Assembly: GCF_021184045.1 (NCBI RefSeq)
Contig: NZ_CP073710.1
Location: 2,056,685 to 2,120,684, forward strand
Length of the DNA: 64,000 nt
DNA from: Methanococcoides orientis
GTDB taxonomy: Archaea; Halobacteriota; Methanosarcinia; Methanosarcinales; Methanosarcinaceae
Direction: 5' to 3'
The notes below the pieces were generated by a model. It did not search any database and was not told where the DNA came from. It saw only the letters and a program-made list of their open reading frames with translations. The first letter of the stretch is position 1. Each line of letters starts with the position of its first letter. The position numbers and the translations under genes are program-made. Below, one piece after another: positions 3,293 through 25,611 of the stretch.

Positions 3293-4396
3293 TCACTCGT
3301 TCAATAACATCATTGTATGCATCAGGTCGGTCCTGGAAAGAATACCAGACACAGAACCATTTTCATCGACCACCAATACCCTGCCGATGTTGTTAGAGAC
3401 CATCAGCTTAAAAGCATCTGCGGCAGTCGCCTCTTTTGGTATCGTTACAATATCTTTTGTCATAACATCGGACACCAATACACTGTAACGGTCCAGAGGC
3501 ATTACCTTGCGTACATCTGTAAATGTAATGATACCTTTTAAAGTGTTGTGTTCTATCACAGGATATCCCATGTGCTTTTTTTCGAACATGAACTGGGTCA
3601 GCTCATCGATCGTCAATGACGGCTCTACCGAAACAATGTCCTTTGTCATAACTTCACTGACAGGTACTTTCTCAAGGGTCACTGTAACAGCTGTGGAACG
3701 GTCCTCACCTGATGCTCCCATGTAAACAAAGACAGCAATGAGAATAAGCCAGGGATTCCAGGGATTTGATAAAAGACCCAGCATTCCCAGCAGGAATGCA
3801 AACATCTTACCGACACCTGCTGCTGCATGAGTTGCCTGTATGTAGGGCATCTTCCTTGCAAACCATGCACGAAGTATGCGTCCACCGTCCATAGGAAAAG
3901 CAGGGAGCAGGTTGAACATACCAAGGACAATGTTGATGGAACCTAACATCTGTACCAGCCTGAATATGACCGAATCCGCAAACGAAGCAACAGCACCGGC
4001 TGCCGCAAAATTGAGCAGTAGCAACGAACCTCCGATAATAAAACTGACCAAAGGTCCTGCAAAAGCCATCTTTGCCTCCTGGCCCGGGTCCCTCGGAATC
4101 TCTTCCATGGAAGAAACACCACCTATCAGGAACAAAGTTATATCTGTGATCTTAACACCGTACTTCTTCGCAAGGTAAGAATGTCCCAGTTCATGAAGCA
4201 GAACACAACCAAAGAGAAGTATAGTTGTCAAAAAAGATAAAGCGTATCCCAATGCTGCCGGCACTACATCATTGAAGCCATAGGGTGCCGGATTCATGGC
4301 AAAAATAATTGCAAAGAATGGAAGAACTAAAAGAAATGTTATGTGTATCTTAATAGGGATACCGATAATTGTTCCAATTTTGAAAGAATTTGCCAT
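3293..4396 (-). CDS. Site-2 protease (M50) with C-terminal CBS pair
   Basis: Intramembrane zinc metalloprotease of family M50. From the ATG at 4396 the product is 367 residues, with HELGH at 68-72 inside a membrane helix and the third metal ligand Asp170 in FPMDGGR. Two CBS domains follow from about residue 243 (VPVSEVMTKDIVSV and VSDVMTKDIVTIP), probably an adenylate-sensing regulatory module. This is the usual S2P-CBS layout of archaea and some bacteria. A longer start at 4429 is in frame, but MANSFKIG fits the family better. It is the first gene of a likely operon with the TraB gene. Confidence 0.92.
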   Translation of the reverse strand: MANSFKIGTIIGIPIKIHITFLLVLPFFAIIFAMNPAPYGFNDVVPAALGYALSFLTTILLFGCVLLHELGHSYLAKKYGVKITDITLFLIGGVSSMEEIPRDPGQEAKMAFAGPLVSFIIGGSLLLLNFAAAGAVASFADSVIFRLVQMLGSINIVLGMFNLLPAFPMDGGRILRAWFARKMPYIQATHAAAGVGKMFAFLLGMLGLLSNPWNPWLILIAVFVYMGASGEDRSTAVTVTLEKVPVSEVMTKDIVSVEPSLTIDELTQFMFEKKHMGYPVIEHNTLKGIITFTDVRKVMPLDRYSVLVSDVMTKDIVTIPKEATAADAFKLMVSNNIGRVLVVDENGSVSGILSRTDLMHTMMLLNE

Positions 4397-4524
4397 AGAT
4401 ATAAATTTTAGCTTTATTGTATTTAGCATTATCTGGTAAACACTTTTAGTGGTTTCATTTAAGCTAATCTAGTCACAATTTAGCATGATTTTAAAAAATA
4501 ATACTTTCACCCCGCTTGGCTTAA

Positions 4525-4540
4525 GAGTATATATACTCAC
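4525..4540 (+). promoter_or_regulatory. TATA box of the candidate small RNA
   Basis: TATATATA at 4528-4535 inside the palindrome GAGTATATATACTC. Its centre lies about 26-27 nt before 4558, where the base-paired small RNA begins, the standard archaeal TATA-to-start distance. The palindrome means it could also fire leftward, but the S2P start is more than 100 nt away. Confidence 0.6.
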
Positions 4541-4556
4541 GTCATAGGTAGTATTA

Positions 4557-4637
4557 GTCACGGATTCGATGGACACACGCCTTTACAAGTTTCAAGGCTA
4601 GGTGCCATCGAACCATCCCCTCAATCCGTGCATTTTT
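4557..4637 (+). ncRNA. Candidate structured small RNA, unknown family
   Basis: About 75-80 nt with nested pairing. Outer stem: CACGGATT (4559-4566) with AATCCGTG (4623-4630), 8 bp. Second stem: CGATGG (4567-4572) with CCATCG (4605-4610), 6 bp, stacked directly on the outer stem on the 5' side. Apical hairpin: GCCTT (4579-4583) with AAGGC (4594-4598). A 12-nt single-stranded segment (4611-4622) lies on the 3' side only. A strong TATA box sits at the right distance upstream and a short T run (4633-4637) follows. It lies between the S2P and mfnA genes and codes for no protein. It is not a tRNA (no D or T arm), and I do not recognise an SRP or RNase P RNA. Confidence 0.6.
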
Positions 4638-8915: not shown

Positions 8916-10646
8916 ATGAAAGAGATCAATGTTCAAGAAGCTTTTTTAGAAGCCGGGTATCAGATCAGCCCTGAAGCTGTAAAGCTGATAGTATCTCACA
9001 GTTTACCAAAGGACCTGGTTTGCTACATTCTTGAACATATCGATGAGTCGGTTTTTGTTATTGAGACCGAACACATTGACCTTTCATCCTTTGAATCTGA
9101 ATATCCGAGCAGCGTGAAAGATGACTCAGGAACGATTTCAGATGTTGCTTCAAAGGTTGGTTCAGATGTTAGTTCACAGGTCTCACAGAATTCGTAGGTC
9201 ATTTCGGGAGAAACACCTTCCCATCCGGAGATATCACCTTCATTTGCTACATCTGAAACTGTATCTAAAGTTACATGTGAAGTATCTTCATCCAATGCTT
9301 CTCCCTCAAAAAAATATTCTTCTTCATTTCCATCCGGTTATGGAAGTAAGGGATTACCAGATGCCGGTCTTAATTTAAATTCTAATGCTAATGGCAGTAA
9401 CATCAATATCATGTCTGATATCACGGACATGTCGACCTGTGTTGGCGAATATATGGAATTCGTCCAGTATTTCAGGAACAGGTATAGTAAGCTTAGTGAT
9501 ATGATCCGTGGAAGGATAACTGCCAGACCAATTGAGAGCCTTAATAAGAACCGCAAGCAGGGAAGTGGCTTAAAGCGGAGTGGAGGCGGTGATTACAGTG
9601 AAGTTTCTATTATTGGAATGGTATCCGAGGTAAGGAGTACTGCAAATGGGCATAAGATGTTGCAGCTGGAAGATCCCACAGGTTCTTTTCTGGTGCTTGT
9701 GCATCAGGCGGAGAAAGATCTTTTTGAAGAGGCCAGTAAGATAATTCTGGATGAGGTTATCGGTATCACAGGTTCCCTGACCAATGATGGCAGTCTGATC
9801 GTAGCAAAGAAGATAATCCTCCCGGACCTTCCGAACATTTCACACAGGAGGGAAGGTACCTGGGGTAAAGCGGTGTTCACATCTGATGTCCATATCGGAA
9901 GCTCGACCTTCCTTGAAGAAGAATGGTGTGGCTTCCTTGATTTTCTTAACGGGAAGTGTGATAATGACCAAATGAAAGAGCTTTCCAAAGATATCCGATA
10001 CCTTGTGATAGCAGGCGATCTGGTTGATGGGATCGGAATTTTCCCTGGGCAGGAACATGAGCTGGATATTCTTGACATCTATGATCAGTATGCAAAGGCT
10101 GCTGAATACTTCAGTCAGGTACCGGAACACATCCAGATAATAATATCACCCGGAAACCACGATGCGGTCCGTCAGGCAGAACCCCAGCCCCGTTTTCCGG
10201 AGCGTATAACCTCCCTTTTTGAGGACAGGATAACTTTTGTGGGAAATCCTGCATTGGTTGATCTTGATGGTGTCCGGGTACTGATGTATCATGGACGCTC
10301 CATTGACGATCTTGTTGCATCGGTCCCGGGAGTTTCATATCAGGAGCCTGAAAAGGCCATGATAGAGATGTTAAAGCGCAGGCATCTTTCCCCTATATAT
10401 GGAAGCAGGGTTTCCATTGCACCGGAGAAACAGGACCATTTTGTAATTGACCAGATACCCGATATTCTCCATTGTGGTCATGTGCATACCATAGGTATTG
10501 GAAGATACAAGAATGTCCTTGCGATAAATTCCGGTACATGGCAGTCACAAACAGAGTTCCAGAAGAGAGTAAATTTAATGCCAACACCTGCACAGGTTCC
10601 TATCGTGGATCTTTCCACTCTCAGGACAACCCTTCTGCACTTCTGA
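8916..10646 (+). CDS. polB: DNA polymerase D small subunit DP1, with in-frame TAG
   Basis: Small (proofreading exonuclease) subunit of the replicative polymerase D. Reading from the ATG at 8916, a TAG occurs at 9195-9197 (codon 94) and the same frame then stays open to the TGA at 10644-10646, giving 576 residues if the TAG is read as an amino acid. N-terminal domain about 1-90; Ser-rich linker about 95-165; OB fold about 225-300; phosphodiesterase domain with SDVHIG, AGDLVDG, SPGNHD, MYHGRS and HCGHVHT. The TAG lies at the start of the linker, so translation without it would need the ATG at 9411 (411 residues, catalytic part only). In Methanosarcinaceae UAG can encode pyrrolysine, which explains an intact frame on both sides. 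It could instead be a split or decaying N-terminus. Confidence 0.88.
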
Positions 10647-20656: not shown

Positions 20657-21694
20657 TTAAGCCTTGTAACCATATCCCGCAAATCTCTGTTTATCATCCA
20701 GATTGCAGATCACAAATCTGTCTGATTCATTATAAGCCAGCAACTTCGATCCTAATAGTGTTACAATACATTCGGCGTCTGTTGTTGTTCTCTCAACTTC
20801 TTCGCCATTTACAACTATCTTTTCCACTCTCATCGGGGATGACTGAAGTCCGACGAAGATATGTGGAACATCTCCGATCGCAAAGCCCTTTGAGAATGGT
20901 GAGAACTTACATTTGAGTGTAAGGTCTTCAGTGACATCTTCTTTTTCCGAGAGTATGAAACCTCTCTCGACATCCTTTGACTGGACGTTCTTAAGTGCAA
21001 GTCCGACCCGGGCACCTGCGGGTGCGCTCTTTGCATCCACATCATGCAGCTGTATCGAGCGGACCTCGATGGTCTTGTCTGTTGGGAAAGCTACAAGTTT
21101 GTCCTTTGCTTTCAGGGTCCCCTGCATCACAATTCCAAGTACTACACAACCAATGCCTGTTACATTGAAGGACTGGTCGATAACAACACGTGTTGGCAGG
21201 TCGTTCAGTTCCTCCTGGTCCTTTGCAACTACATCCCCCATATCGAATATCATTTCCTTCAATTCTTCCATTCCTTCGAATGAGGTTGTGGAAATCGAGA
21301 TATATTCCCAGTTCTCAAGAGAGGTACCTGTTGTCACTTTTTTAAGTTTCTCTTTCAGCTCATCTAGTGCAAAGGGGTAGCTGGTATCTGCTTTTGTAAG
21401 GACAATGATACCATGCTTGTATCCCAGGAGGTCAAGTGCAATGATACATTCGCCTGTATGTGCATCAAGACCTTCAGGAGGTACGCACAAAAGGACAATG
21501 TCCGAAAGATTGAAGGCGGTCACCATAGGTTTGATGGAAGTTGGATAACCGACTGCATCTATGGTCGTCAGGACCTTGTCGTTCTTGGAAAAATCGTACA
21601 TCGTAATGTCTGCTGTGTTTCCTTTTTTCCCAAGTTTTGAAGCAAGGGTGGTTTTGCCGCTTTTTTCGCTTCCGATAATAGTTATTTTTGTCAT
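20657..21694 (-). CDS. SelB-like elongation factor homologue (aSelBL)
   Basis: 345 residues: a translation-factor GTPase domain followed by EF-Tu-like domains 2 and 3, without the C-terminal SECIS-binding domain of SelB. G1 is GSEKSGKTT, G3 is DAVG, and the base-specificity motif reads LTKAD instead of NKxD, the kind of disruption described for the aSelBL family. aSelBL was first proposed as a pyrrolysine-specific elongation factor; later phylogenetic work found it more widespread than pyrrolysine and left its role open. It lies 57 nt downstream of an RNA ligase gene that contains an in-frame TAG and is probably in the same transcript. Confidence 0.85.
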   Translation of the reverse strand: MTKITIIGSEKSGKTTLASKLGKKGNTADITMYDFSKNDKVLTTIDAVGYPTSIKPMVTAFNLSDIVLLCVPPEGLDAHTGECIIALDLLGYKHGIIVLTKADTSYPFALDELKEKLKKVTTGTSLENWEYISISTTSFEGMEELKEMIFDMGDVVAKDQEELNDLPTRVVIDQSFNVTGIGCVVLGIVMQGTLKAKDKLVAFPTDKTIEVRSIQLHDVDAKSAPAGARVGLALKNVQSKDVERGFILSEKEDVTEDLTLKCKFSPFSKGFAIGDVPHIFVGLQSSPMRVEKIVVNGEEVERTTTDAECIVTLLGSKLLAYNESDRFVICNLDDKQRFAGYGYKA

Positions 21695-21751: not shown

Positions 21752-22921
21752 TCACCAGAGTTCTCCTTTGAACATGGAAAGGGTCTTATCATTAGTGCTC
21801 TTGTTCAGCTTCTTTATTTTGATGAGGAATTCATTACCGATCTTTTCCGGTTCATCGAACATTGCATCGATTCCCTGTCGCCGGAGATATTCCTTGAACT
21901 CTGTTAGAGTATCAAGACTTCTAACTCTGATCTGTACCTCTTCAGCCACTTTTTCGCCTTTTTCCATATCAGTGATAGCCTCTATCATTGGATTAAGTAT
22001 GCTTTCCCCGAGTTGAAGGCACCGCTTTTTGAGATCTTCTTCGCTTTCTCCCCATTCAAAGGCCTGGAAGCCTTCCCGCACTACCCTTGAAAAAAGATAG
22101 TCACGCCCCACATCATTGTAGAACCTGAATGCATGTCTCAGATCTGCACAATTGCTCTGGGAACAAGTGTATTTTATGGGTGAAATGTTCATATTTGGGT
22201 CTTTGATCACAACACCTTCATGCTCGATCTTCCCGAGTTCCTTGATAATGGCATGTATCTTCCCAGTAGCTTCTTCTTTTGTAAATTCTCCGAAAAGCCT
22301 GACCTGTGTGAAACCATATTCTTCTGCCATCTTCCTTCTTTCATTTACAGGCAGGGGCTCACCACTGCCCTTATGCCTTATATCGAAGATAGAGAAATCA
22401 AGAGAATTGATATCATAGATATTCTTGGGTACATAAGGATTGTCGGGTCCGACCATTTCCCCGTGAAGGACAAGATCCGGATGATCATTAAAAAAATCAA
22501 TGTTCAGCAGGTCCCTCGCTTTTTCGGTGGAATAGGGACAAACATATCCACCGCGTGTGATGGCGGTTATTTTCCCGTCAATAGCTATGGCTCGTACATT
22601 AAAGCCATTCATTTTCTCTTCCACACAGATGGTATCAATATCAGAAAATTGAGAATTGATGGCAGGTTCAAGAAGCATGGCCCGCTTTATCTTTGGAAAA
22701 CCCTTTATCAGCTCAAAACAGCCATCCTTTTGCTAGACAACAGTTCCACTTTCGATCTGTGAAAAAGTGGTCTTAAAACGAAAAAGATGCTGGTACTCTC
22801 CCCAGTTCTGCACAAGCTCACGCTTATCCAGCAGTTTCTGGAGTCTGGAAATGGGTATGCTAAGATATTCCGCCATACCCTCTATGTCCAGCTCAATATC
22901 TTTACCAGCATCCTGTTGCAT
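21752..22921 (-). CDS. ATP-dependent RNA ligase (archaeal Rnl3 type), with in-frame TAG
   Basis: Archaeal RNA ligase that adenylylates itself and seals RNA ends. From the ATG at 22921 the frame meets TAG at 22735-22733 (codon 63) and then stays open to TGA at 21752, 389 residues in all. The conserved core is split: IESGTVV just before the TAG, and FELIKGFPKIKRAMLLEP just after it, a stretch that is continuous in homologues as I remember them. The nucleotidyl lysine is Lys103 in EEKMNGFNVR; the motif near EHEGVVIKDP and a C-terminal helical domain follow. The start overlaps the preceding CBS gene and a ribosome-site-like AGTGA lies upstream. TAG is most simply read as pyrrolysine; a catalytic fragment from the ATG at 22678 would lack the conserved N-terminal part. 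Confidence 0.9.
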
Positions 22922-22926
22922 AGTTT

Positions 22927-23712
22927 TCACTTTGCAATGGTGTTCACAAGTGTTCTTCTTGTGATGAGCCCGACCAGATATCCTTCGAGGTTAATAACAG
23001 GCACACCACCAATGTTCTCCTCAAGCATCATGTCCTTTACTTCTGATACCGGAGTGTTGGTCTGTACGGTCTTGACCCCCCTCTTCATGATATCCTCTAT
23101 AATGAGGTTCTTGATACGGGAATCCTGCTTGTTTCCTGAAACCACATCTCTGAAGGCACGCATTGACTTTGCAATATCCTTCTCTGTAACGATCCCCACA
23201 AGCTTGTCATCCTCAATAACAGGGAATCTTCCAACATCTTCATCAAGCATCTGATGCCTGACATGGCTTACTCTGTCTCCGGGATGTATAGTTATCGGGT
23301 TGCTGTTCATAACCTCGGCAGCATACCCGTCGAATGTTACATTTTGAAGCAGTTCAGCGGGTGTTACCCATCCAAGAACGTTCTCATTGTCGCTTACAAT
23401 GATAACACCGCTTTTTTTAGCCATTAATACGACTGCATCATTGAGATCCATATCAGGCAGGACCTTCACATAGTTGTCTGATACAGCAGTAGCAACATGA
23501 AGTGAAGAAGCTGGTTTCGCACCTTTCTTTCGTGTTCCCAGTTGTTCGGTAAGTCCCCTCATGGTGAGAACACCGACCAGATCATTATCATGTGTCACTA
23601 ATAGGCGACGTGTACTTTTCTTCTCCATCACATCAAGTGCATGTGAGATCGTGTCTGATTTGTCAATTGATGTTGGTTGTACCATTATGTCCTTTACTTG
23701 CATGTCTGTCAC
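22927..23712 (-). CDS. CBS-domain protein 1 (four CBS motifs)
   Basis: 261 residues made almost entirely of four CBS domains (two Bateman modules), starting VKDIMVQP, then a divergent second, AAEVMNSNP and IEDIMKRG. The modules usually bind adenosine nucleotides or S-adenosylmethionine and regulate a partner; no enzymatic domain is present. It is the last of five tandem CBS genes and overlaps or abuts the start of the RNA ligase gene (TGA at 22929-22927, ligase ATG at 22921), so it is translationally coupled to the ligase. Confidence 0.9.
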
Positions 23713-23759
23713 CTCTTTAACTCATGTTCTTAGTCTATACTTCCTTGCTACACCTTTTA

Positions 23760-24599
23760 TCAGGCTGCCTTCATCACATCTGTTCTGCTGACAATACCAA
23801 CGATCTCATCGTTCTCAGCAATAGGGATGCCTGTGACGTTCTTATCGATCATGACCTTTGCAGCTTCCGTGATCGGATCAGTAACTTCCAGTATTTTTGC
23901 GATATTGGCCATTATATCCTCTGCAACAAGTGGAACTGCTTTCACATATCTGTATACCTTTTCACCACCTGATTTTGGTTTTCTTGCCATCTTGATGCTC
24001 TTGGATGGGAGTTCTCCCTCATTGTTCGCAAGAACGTGGAGTGCAAGTTCCCTTGTGGTGATGATTCCTACGGCTTCACCGGTATCGTCTGTAACAATAA
24101 GTTTGCTTACCTTGTTACTTTCCATTTCATCGACCACGTGATTTACTGTGTGGTGCCTGTGCACAAATACAGGGTCAAGTGTCATTATTTCACCAACTTT
24201 CTTATCGCTGGGAAGTTCTGACATGCGGCGTACTACGTCAAATCTCGTTACAATTCCAAGAAGTCTTCCGTTGTTGACCACAGGGACATTATTGATATCA
24301 TTATCGATCATCACCTCAGTAACCTGGGAAATAGATGCTTCAGGGTAGATCGTGACAGGGTCTTCTGTCATTATCATTTTCACAGGTACCTTGTCGATAG
24401 GTCTTCTTCTCCACATGGGTTCTGCCTGTGCAAGACGTCTTCCCAGATCGGACTTCGTGACTATGCCCACCATTTCGTCGCGATCTACAACAACAATAGT
24501 GCTTATCTTGTGCCTTAGCATAAGGTTTCTTGCATGTGATACAGGCTCATCCGGTCCCATTACATGGACAGGTGATGTCATAATGTCTGATACTTTCAT
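23760..24599 (-). CDS. CBS-domain protein 2 (four CBS motifs)
   Basis: 279 residues, four CBS domains: VSDIMTSPV, VKMIMTEDP, VGEIMTLDP and a fourth at VAEDIMANI. No other domain is seen. It has the conserved GIVTKSDL / GIVTRFDV / GIISRTDV-type ends that contribute to nucleotide binding. It is the fourth gene of the array, 47 nt before the next CBS gene, with AAGGAGGATAAG as a strong ribosome site in front of the start. Confidence 0.9.
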   Translation of the reverse strand: MKVSDIMTSPVHVMGPDEPVSHARNLMLRHKISTIVVVDRDEMVGIVTKSDLGRRLAQAEPMWRRRPIDKVPVKMIMTEDPVTIYPEASISQVTEVMIDNDINNVPVVNNGRLLGIVTRFDVVRRMSELPSDKKVGEIMTLDPVFVHRHHTVNHVVDEMESNKVSKLIVTDDTGEAVGIITTRELALHVLANNEGELPSKSIKMARKPKSGGEKVYRYVKAVPLVAEDIMANIAKILEVTDPITEAAKVMIDKNVTGIPIAENDEIVGIVSRTDVMKAA

Positions 24600-24642
24600 A
24601 TCTTATCCTCCTTGTTCTTTTGTTATCCTTGTGGATTCTCAT

Positions 24643-25611
24643 TCATTCAGCCATTGCTCTAAGTATATCCCTTTCTGTGATTATACCGCAGAGCTTTCCG
24701 TTGTCAATTACAGGCAGTGCCCCAACATTATTTTGAACCATAAGCTCGCTTGCTTTCCCAAGATCTGCATCTGATGATACCCAGATAACATCTTTTGAGA
24801 TCAGTGAGCTGATAGGAGCATCCATTGCTTCATGGATGTTACCGGTGGTGAGCTTTTCAAATGCCTCCCCATTTCCCAGGAAGTGCATTATAGAAGATGC
24901 ATTGACAACGCCAATTAGAATATCTCCTTTGACCACAGGAAGCCTGCGGAAACGATTCATTACCATTATCTTTGCAGCATCACTAATGGTCATGTTTGCA
25001 GGTGCTTTCTCAACCCTTTTGCTCATGTATTCAGCGATAGTTTTGTTGGTAACTATTCCAGCTGTAAATGTCAGAAAATCCTTCTCTGTGCAGATGGCGT
25101 GTACATGATTTGTACTATCTACTATCGGAAGGCTTCCGATATTGTTCTTGAGCATAAGATCAAAGGCTTCCTTGATATTCCCATCACTGCGGATCGTTGT
25201 TACATCATGCTGCATTATTGTGCTGACATCTGCATTGATGGCTGCAAGTAGGTTGCCTTTATGTCTCTTTTCAACAAGTTGGTTCTTGTCTCCTCCTCCG
25301 AGGAAATCAATAACATCAAAAGAGGTAACGATACCCTCGATCCTATTTGTACCAGCATCAGTAAGGGGGATATGCCTGAAGTTGTTTTTTGTCATGATCT
25401 TTATGGCATCGATGATCCGTGTTGTAGGCGGAGCCGTGATAACTTCCCTGGTGGCCACCGACATAATATCTCCTTCATGCTCTGAGATCTTTGTATGAAA
25501 ATCAAAAGCCCCACGATCCATTGTACCGGAAGTGGTGATCAACACATGATCCTTTTTTTGAACTCTGCTTTTCGTAGGGCTATGTGCTTCAAGTTTCATT
25601 TTATCCTCCAT
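24643..25611 (-). CDS. CBS-domain protein 3 (four CBS motifs, N-terminal extension)
   Basis: 322 residues. An N-terminal extension of about 50 residues (charged, EDKMKLEAHSPTKSRVQKKD) precedes four CBS domains: IMSVATREVI, VSTIMQHDV, IAEYMSKRV and ISSLISKDV. The last ends GIITERDILRAMAE at the C-terminus. The extension distinguishes it from its neighbours and may be the contact site for a partner. Third gene of the array; GGAGGATAAAATG is its ribosome site. Confidence 0.9.
   Translation of the reverse strand: MEDKMKLEAHSPTKSRVQKKDHVLITTSGTMDRGAFDFHTKISEHEGDIMSVATREVITAPPTTRIIDAIKIMTKNNFRHIPLTDAGTNRIEGIVTSFDVIDFLGGGDKNQLVEKRHKGNLLAAINADVSTIMQHDVTTIRSDGNIKEAFDLMLKNNIGSLPIVDSTNHVHAICTEKDFLTFTAGIVTNKTIAEYMSKRVEKAPANMTISDAAKIMVMNRFRRLPVVKGDILIGVVNASSIMHFLGNGEAFEKLTTGNIHEAMDAPISSLISKDVIWVSSDADLGKASELMVQNNVGALPVIDNGKLCGIITERDILRAMAE

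Follow-up and report, generated by a model that had tools for sequence, protein, structure and literature searches.

Nearly all of the long-known pyrrolysine-containing proteins are methylamine methyltransferases. In MtmB, MtbB and MttB, pyrrolysine (Pyl) is a conserved catalytic residue, encoded by an in-frame UAG and inserted by the pylTSBCD machinery. A case outside the methyltransferases is nevertheless already known: Thg1 (tRNA-His guanylyltransferase) of Methanosarcina acetivorans contains an internal UAG codon that can be translated as Pyl, is dispensable for activity and has been ascribed to neutral evolution (Heinemann et al., 2009, as given in PMC2933860). The M. burtonii table of a 2005 survey of Pyl genes lists methyltransferases only (PMC1242214), and the candidate section of a 2013 survey does not name an RNA ligase (PMC3639795).

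The RNA ligase gene analysed here lies in a 64,000-nucleotide stretch of the Methanococcoides orientis genome (the window). It resembles mtmB, mtbB and mttB in having an in-frame UAG in a genome with the same pylTSBCD machinery but, unlike in those genes, the UAG occupies a variable position that in the sequence is remote from the catalytic motif. As in Thg1, an RNA-processing enzyme has acquired an in-frame UAG; however, whereas the UAG of Thg1 is found in one species, that of the ligase is present in all but two of the 11 genomes of the genus and apparently dates from its base. The ligase would bring an ordinary enzyme of housekeeping type under a decoding rule that is already known. Kivenson and co-workers, writing in Science in 2025, have reportedly described archaea, M. 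burtonii reportedly among them, that read every TAG as Pyl (the 'Pyl code'); the scarcity of TAG stops and the occurrence of TAG in many ordinary genes, both seen here, are features of the same kind. The locus comprises the following features:

22927–23712, minus strand: upstream neighbour, a protein with four CBS domains, syntenic through most of the family
21752–22921, minus strand: ATP-dependent RNA ligase gene (Rnl/Pab1020 type, TIGR01209), 389 residues when the TAG is read through, ending in TGA
22919–22921, minus strand: ATG start codon of the ligase
22736–22921, minus strand: upstream part of the ligase, codons 1–62
22733–22735, minus strand: in-frame TAG, codon 63, candidate pyrrolysine
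22679–22732, minus strand: codons 64–81, from the TAG to the internal ATG, with the invariant GFPKI-RA
22676–22678, minus strand: internal ATG (Met82), rejected as translation start
22613–22615, minus strand: motif I catalytic lysine, Lys103 (EEKMNG), assigned by alignment to 5d1o
20657–21694, minus strand: downstream neighbour, a SelB/EF-Tu-like factor (aSelBL, a relative of M. mazei 3wnb), syntenic family-wide

The first-pass annotation of this DNA had described a frame open from the ATG at 22921 to the TGA at 21752 on the minus strand except for a TAG at 22735–22733, and we confirmed that this codon is the single interruption of one ligase. The read-through product matches TIGR01209 with 401 bits (curated cut-off 136.9 bits) over residues 20–389 and model positions 5–373 of 375, and it also matches the Pfam families RNA_ligase (PF09414) and Lig_C (PF18330, 150 bits), the latter being the Pab1020-type domain at the C terminus. 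Judged from its sequence, the gene is an archaeal ATP-dependent RNA ligase of the TIGR01209 / Rnl3 type. The nearest solved structures are those of MthRnl (5d1o) and PAB1020 (2vug), which belong to the same ligase family and have the same domain order and motif I lysine but, unlike the M. orientis gene, contain no in-frame stop. The lysine that had been proposed as catalytic, 40 codons past the TAG, is Lys103 of the EEKMNG sequence (motif I, KxxG); it is invariant in an alignment of 30 sequences and corresponds to K97, the motif I lysine of MthRnl (PMC3514331). A position equivalent to the ATG at 22921 is kept in all 11 genomes of the genus, whereas a GTG at 22930, considered as an alternative start, is not retained in relatives.

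The TAG was originally placed within a conserved block, with IESGTVV before it and FELIKGFPKIKR after it. This description holds for the flanks, which are conserved, but not for the TAG column itself, where family members differ (Tyr, Val, Ile, Leu, Cys and Gln). Within the genus, nine of the 11 genomes show TAG at this column, one CAG (Gln) and another TGC (Cys); such recurrence at a single column can be attributed neither to chance nor to sequencing error. The alignment to archaeal RNA ligases that had been suggested as a check showed mostly Tyr in the rest of the family (12 of the 19 aligned sequences from outside the genus, the remainder having Val, Ile, Leu or Cys), and a Tyr of MthRnl (5d1o) is aligned with codon 63. 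No in-ligase TAG was found in 91 further genomes of the family with a ligase match. On the tree, the distribution of TAG requires three changes and fits a single gain in the ancestor of the genus and two later losses. All 11 genomes of the genus encode pylS, including both that lack the TAG, so the two losses did not follow from loss of the decoding system. The existence of two pylS-bearing members without the codon also indicates that pyrrolysine is not required in the ligase, and the natural Gln and Cys variants are ready-made controls for any role of Pyl63.

Two of the alternatives deny that the TAG is translated. According to one, the functional ligase begins at the ATG at 22678 and the part upstream of it is a separate or dead ORF; according to the other, a premature stop has left the gene a pseudogene. 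The internal start can draw on the invariance of Met82 in the family and on the 308-residue ORF that runs from it and is open under the standard code, and the pseudogene on the interruption of the frame itself. We compared the rates of substitution on the two sides of the TAG. Pairwise dN/dS values were about 0.14–0.52 for codons 1–62 among the pairs tested, 0–0.22 for codons 64–81 (that is, no greater than 0.22 in every pair with a synonymous change) and 0.05–0.21 for codons 82–389. In addition, G74, F75, P76, K77, I78, R80 and A81 are invariant in all 30 aligned sequences, and in relatives without the TAG the region of codons 64–81 is the middle of one protein. Because codons 64–81, which precede the ATG at 22678, are under selection and contain these seven invariant residues, initiation there cannot account for the observations. 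Such a start would also delete what is modelled as the entire N-terminal domain. All members of the family align through the upstream part and Met82 is not the conserved start, the outcome that would have refuted the original reading; we hold the internal start to be highly improbable. A pseudogene is barely conceivable: nine species-level genomes have this TAG in common, with synonymous sites near saturation between the two subclades of the genus, the frame is otherwise undamaged, and dN/dS stays well below 1 before and after the codon. Purifying selection on both sides of the TAG rules out internal initiation and pseudogene decay alike.

The Pyl reading also calls for a decoding system, and the genome has one: the tRNA-Pyl(CUA) gene is followed by pylS, pylB, pylC and pylD in one cluster, with a pylS match of 707 bits and the matches of pylB, pylC and pylD above cut-off. 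The use of TAG in the genome was assessed by a census of stretches totalling 1.25 Mb, half of the genome, with a simple codon-usage gene caller, so that the counts are approximate. TAG ended 13 of the 941 gene-like ORFs (1.4%), although about 20% of the stop triplets between genes are TAG. Ten of these 13 ORFs run on in frame as coding sequence for at least 45 codons and three have no continuation. This census overlooks genes with short upstream parts; when frames of that kind are counted as well, there are 21 TAG-containing frames, a few of them merely 5' leaders. In a sample of a Pyl-encoding genome that belongs to a different genus of the family, TAG accounts for 16 of 155 stops, nearly all of them real, with another stop within a few codons.

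The read-through set of M. orientis contains known Pyl genes (a dimethylamine methyltransferase gene and two MtmB-like genes, the latter two recognised by sequence), and a subtilase, a histidine kinase and a surface protein of the beta-helix type are also encoded by frames of this set. Further frames with a TAG and a coding continuation include those for an FrhB-like and an S-layer-like protein. Apparent TAG stops persist in pylB and in about two other sampled genes, which indicates that release at UAG has not been abolished in this genome. The pylB stop (L061:9128–9130, minus strand) is TAG in all 11 genomes of the genus and in several other genera, and pylC begins immediately past it; pylB genes ending in TAG have been noted before for three species (PMC2933860), and this stop might conceivably serve in feedback. 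A PYLIS-like stem-loop was sought 3' of the codon-63 TAG in three species and none was found, folding being no better than that of shuffled sequences (z 0.45 to 1.55); an RNA element after the UAG is not required for Pyl insertion (PMC9499178).

The ligase gene is not alone in the window in having an in-frame TAG: the gene for DP1, the small subunit of PolD (8916–10643, plus strand), carries one at 9195–9197, as codon 94, in a linker; the sister genome, which is 98% identical, has Glu at this codon. Three other members of the genus, one of which we take to be M. burtonii, have a different DP1 TAG, within the phosphoesterase domain and at a codon that is CAG (Gln) in relatives; in these M. burtonii-like genomes, it forms an Asp-TAG-Val site. 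PolD is essential in those archaea where this has been tested, and termination at the DP1 TAG codons is accordingly hard to accept. Together with the presence of the ligase TAG across most of the genus, the occurrence of UAG at two independent sites of DP1 indicates that ordinary genes here use UAG as a sense codon, and standard annotation will split or truncate genes that contain it. A gene for an M50/CBS protease (3296–4576, minus strand) was considered as a further TAG case and was not counted, as its TAG precedes the likely true start (MANSF).

The remaining alternatives accept translation through the TAG and differ in how, or to what end, it occurs. Reading of UAG by a near-cognate tRNA (for Gln, Tyr or Lys) instead of tRNA-Pyl would be compatible with the range of amino acids tolerated at residue 63, but the genome has a dedicated tRNA-Pyl(CUA) and a full pyl cluster, and its methyltransferase genes have TAGs of a kind known to encode Pyl, so we regard such misreading as very unlikely. 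A different proposal, which refines rather than replaces translation as Pyl, is that the UAG is regulatory, full-length ligase being made only when pyrrolysine is plentiful and RNA repair thereby being coupled to growth on methylamines. Its chief attraction is that the TAG has been kept in both subclades, which match at 37% of fourfold sites, a divergence that gives a rough expectation of 5% for three neutral sites; this survival is a weak indication of retention, against pure neutrality. Yet two members have dropped the TAG and keep pylS, a sense codon may offer no advantage over TAG, and TAG is also found in unrelated genes, DP1 included; we consider a regulatory role improbable. Broader still is the idea that the genus reads UAG as a proteome-wide Pyl sense codon, in enzymes of replication (DP1) and RNA repair among others, such that core processes depend on the supply of pyrrolysine and the levels of full-length ligase and polymerase follow methylamine metabolism; we consider this speculative and unlikely.

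The explanation that we favour, and hold to be very probable, is that the ligase is intact and that codon 63 is a sense UAG at which Pyl is inserted, the TAG having had a single origin from a Tyr codon and two losses in near-neutral evolution. A full-length product with Pyl63, which the first-pass annotation had put forward as the simplest reading, is thereby supported; we infer the identity of the residue from the pyl machinery, whose presence had been posed as a test, and from genome-wide TAG use. In mechanistic terms, Pyl-tRNA(CUA) produced by the pylTSBCD cluster would outcompete the release factor at the UAG and insert pyrrolysine, presumably with good efficiency. The product would be a 389-residue ligase in which Pyl63 belongs to a beta hairpin of the N-terminal domain, lies on its first strand and is separated in the sequence from Lys103; in an AlphaFold2 model (mean pLDDT 90), residue 63 is found in the strand formed by residues 61–65 of this hairpin. 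The codon probably has a single origin, a TAY to TAG change in the ancestor of the genus, and was later lost twice. With TAG hardly serving as a stop in this genome, the replacement would have been near-neutral and so tolerated. The variability of the column and the fact that the codon was lost twice argue for such a change, as has been reported for Thg1 of M. acetivorans (PMC2933860).

In most of the family, the ligase gene lies between the same two neighbours, the CBS gene and the gene for the SelB-like factor. The aSelBL family, to which the downstream neighbour belongs, was once proposed to serve as a Pyl elongation factor. We considered this adjacency as a clue to Pyl decoding and set it aside as uninformative, because the same adjacency is found in genera without the ligase TAG. 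Upstream of the ligase, three CBS-domain-like genes form a run at 22927–25611 on the minus strand, the HMM result applying to the first of them only.
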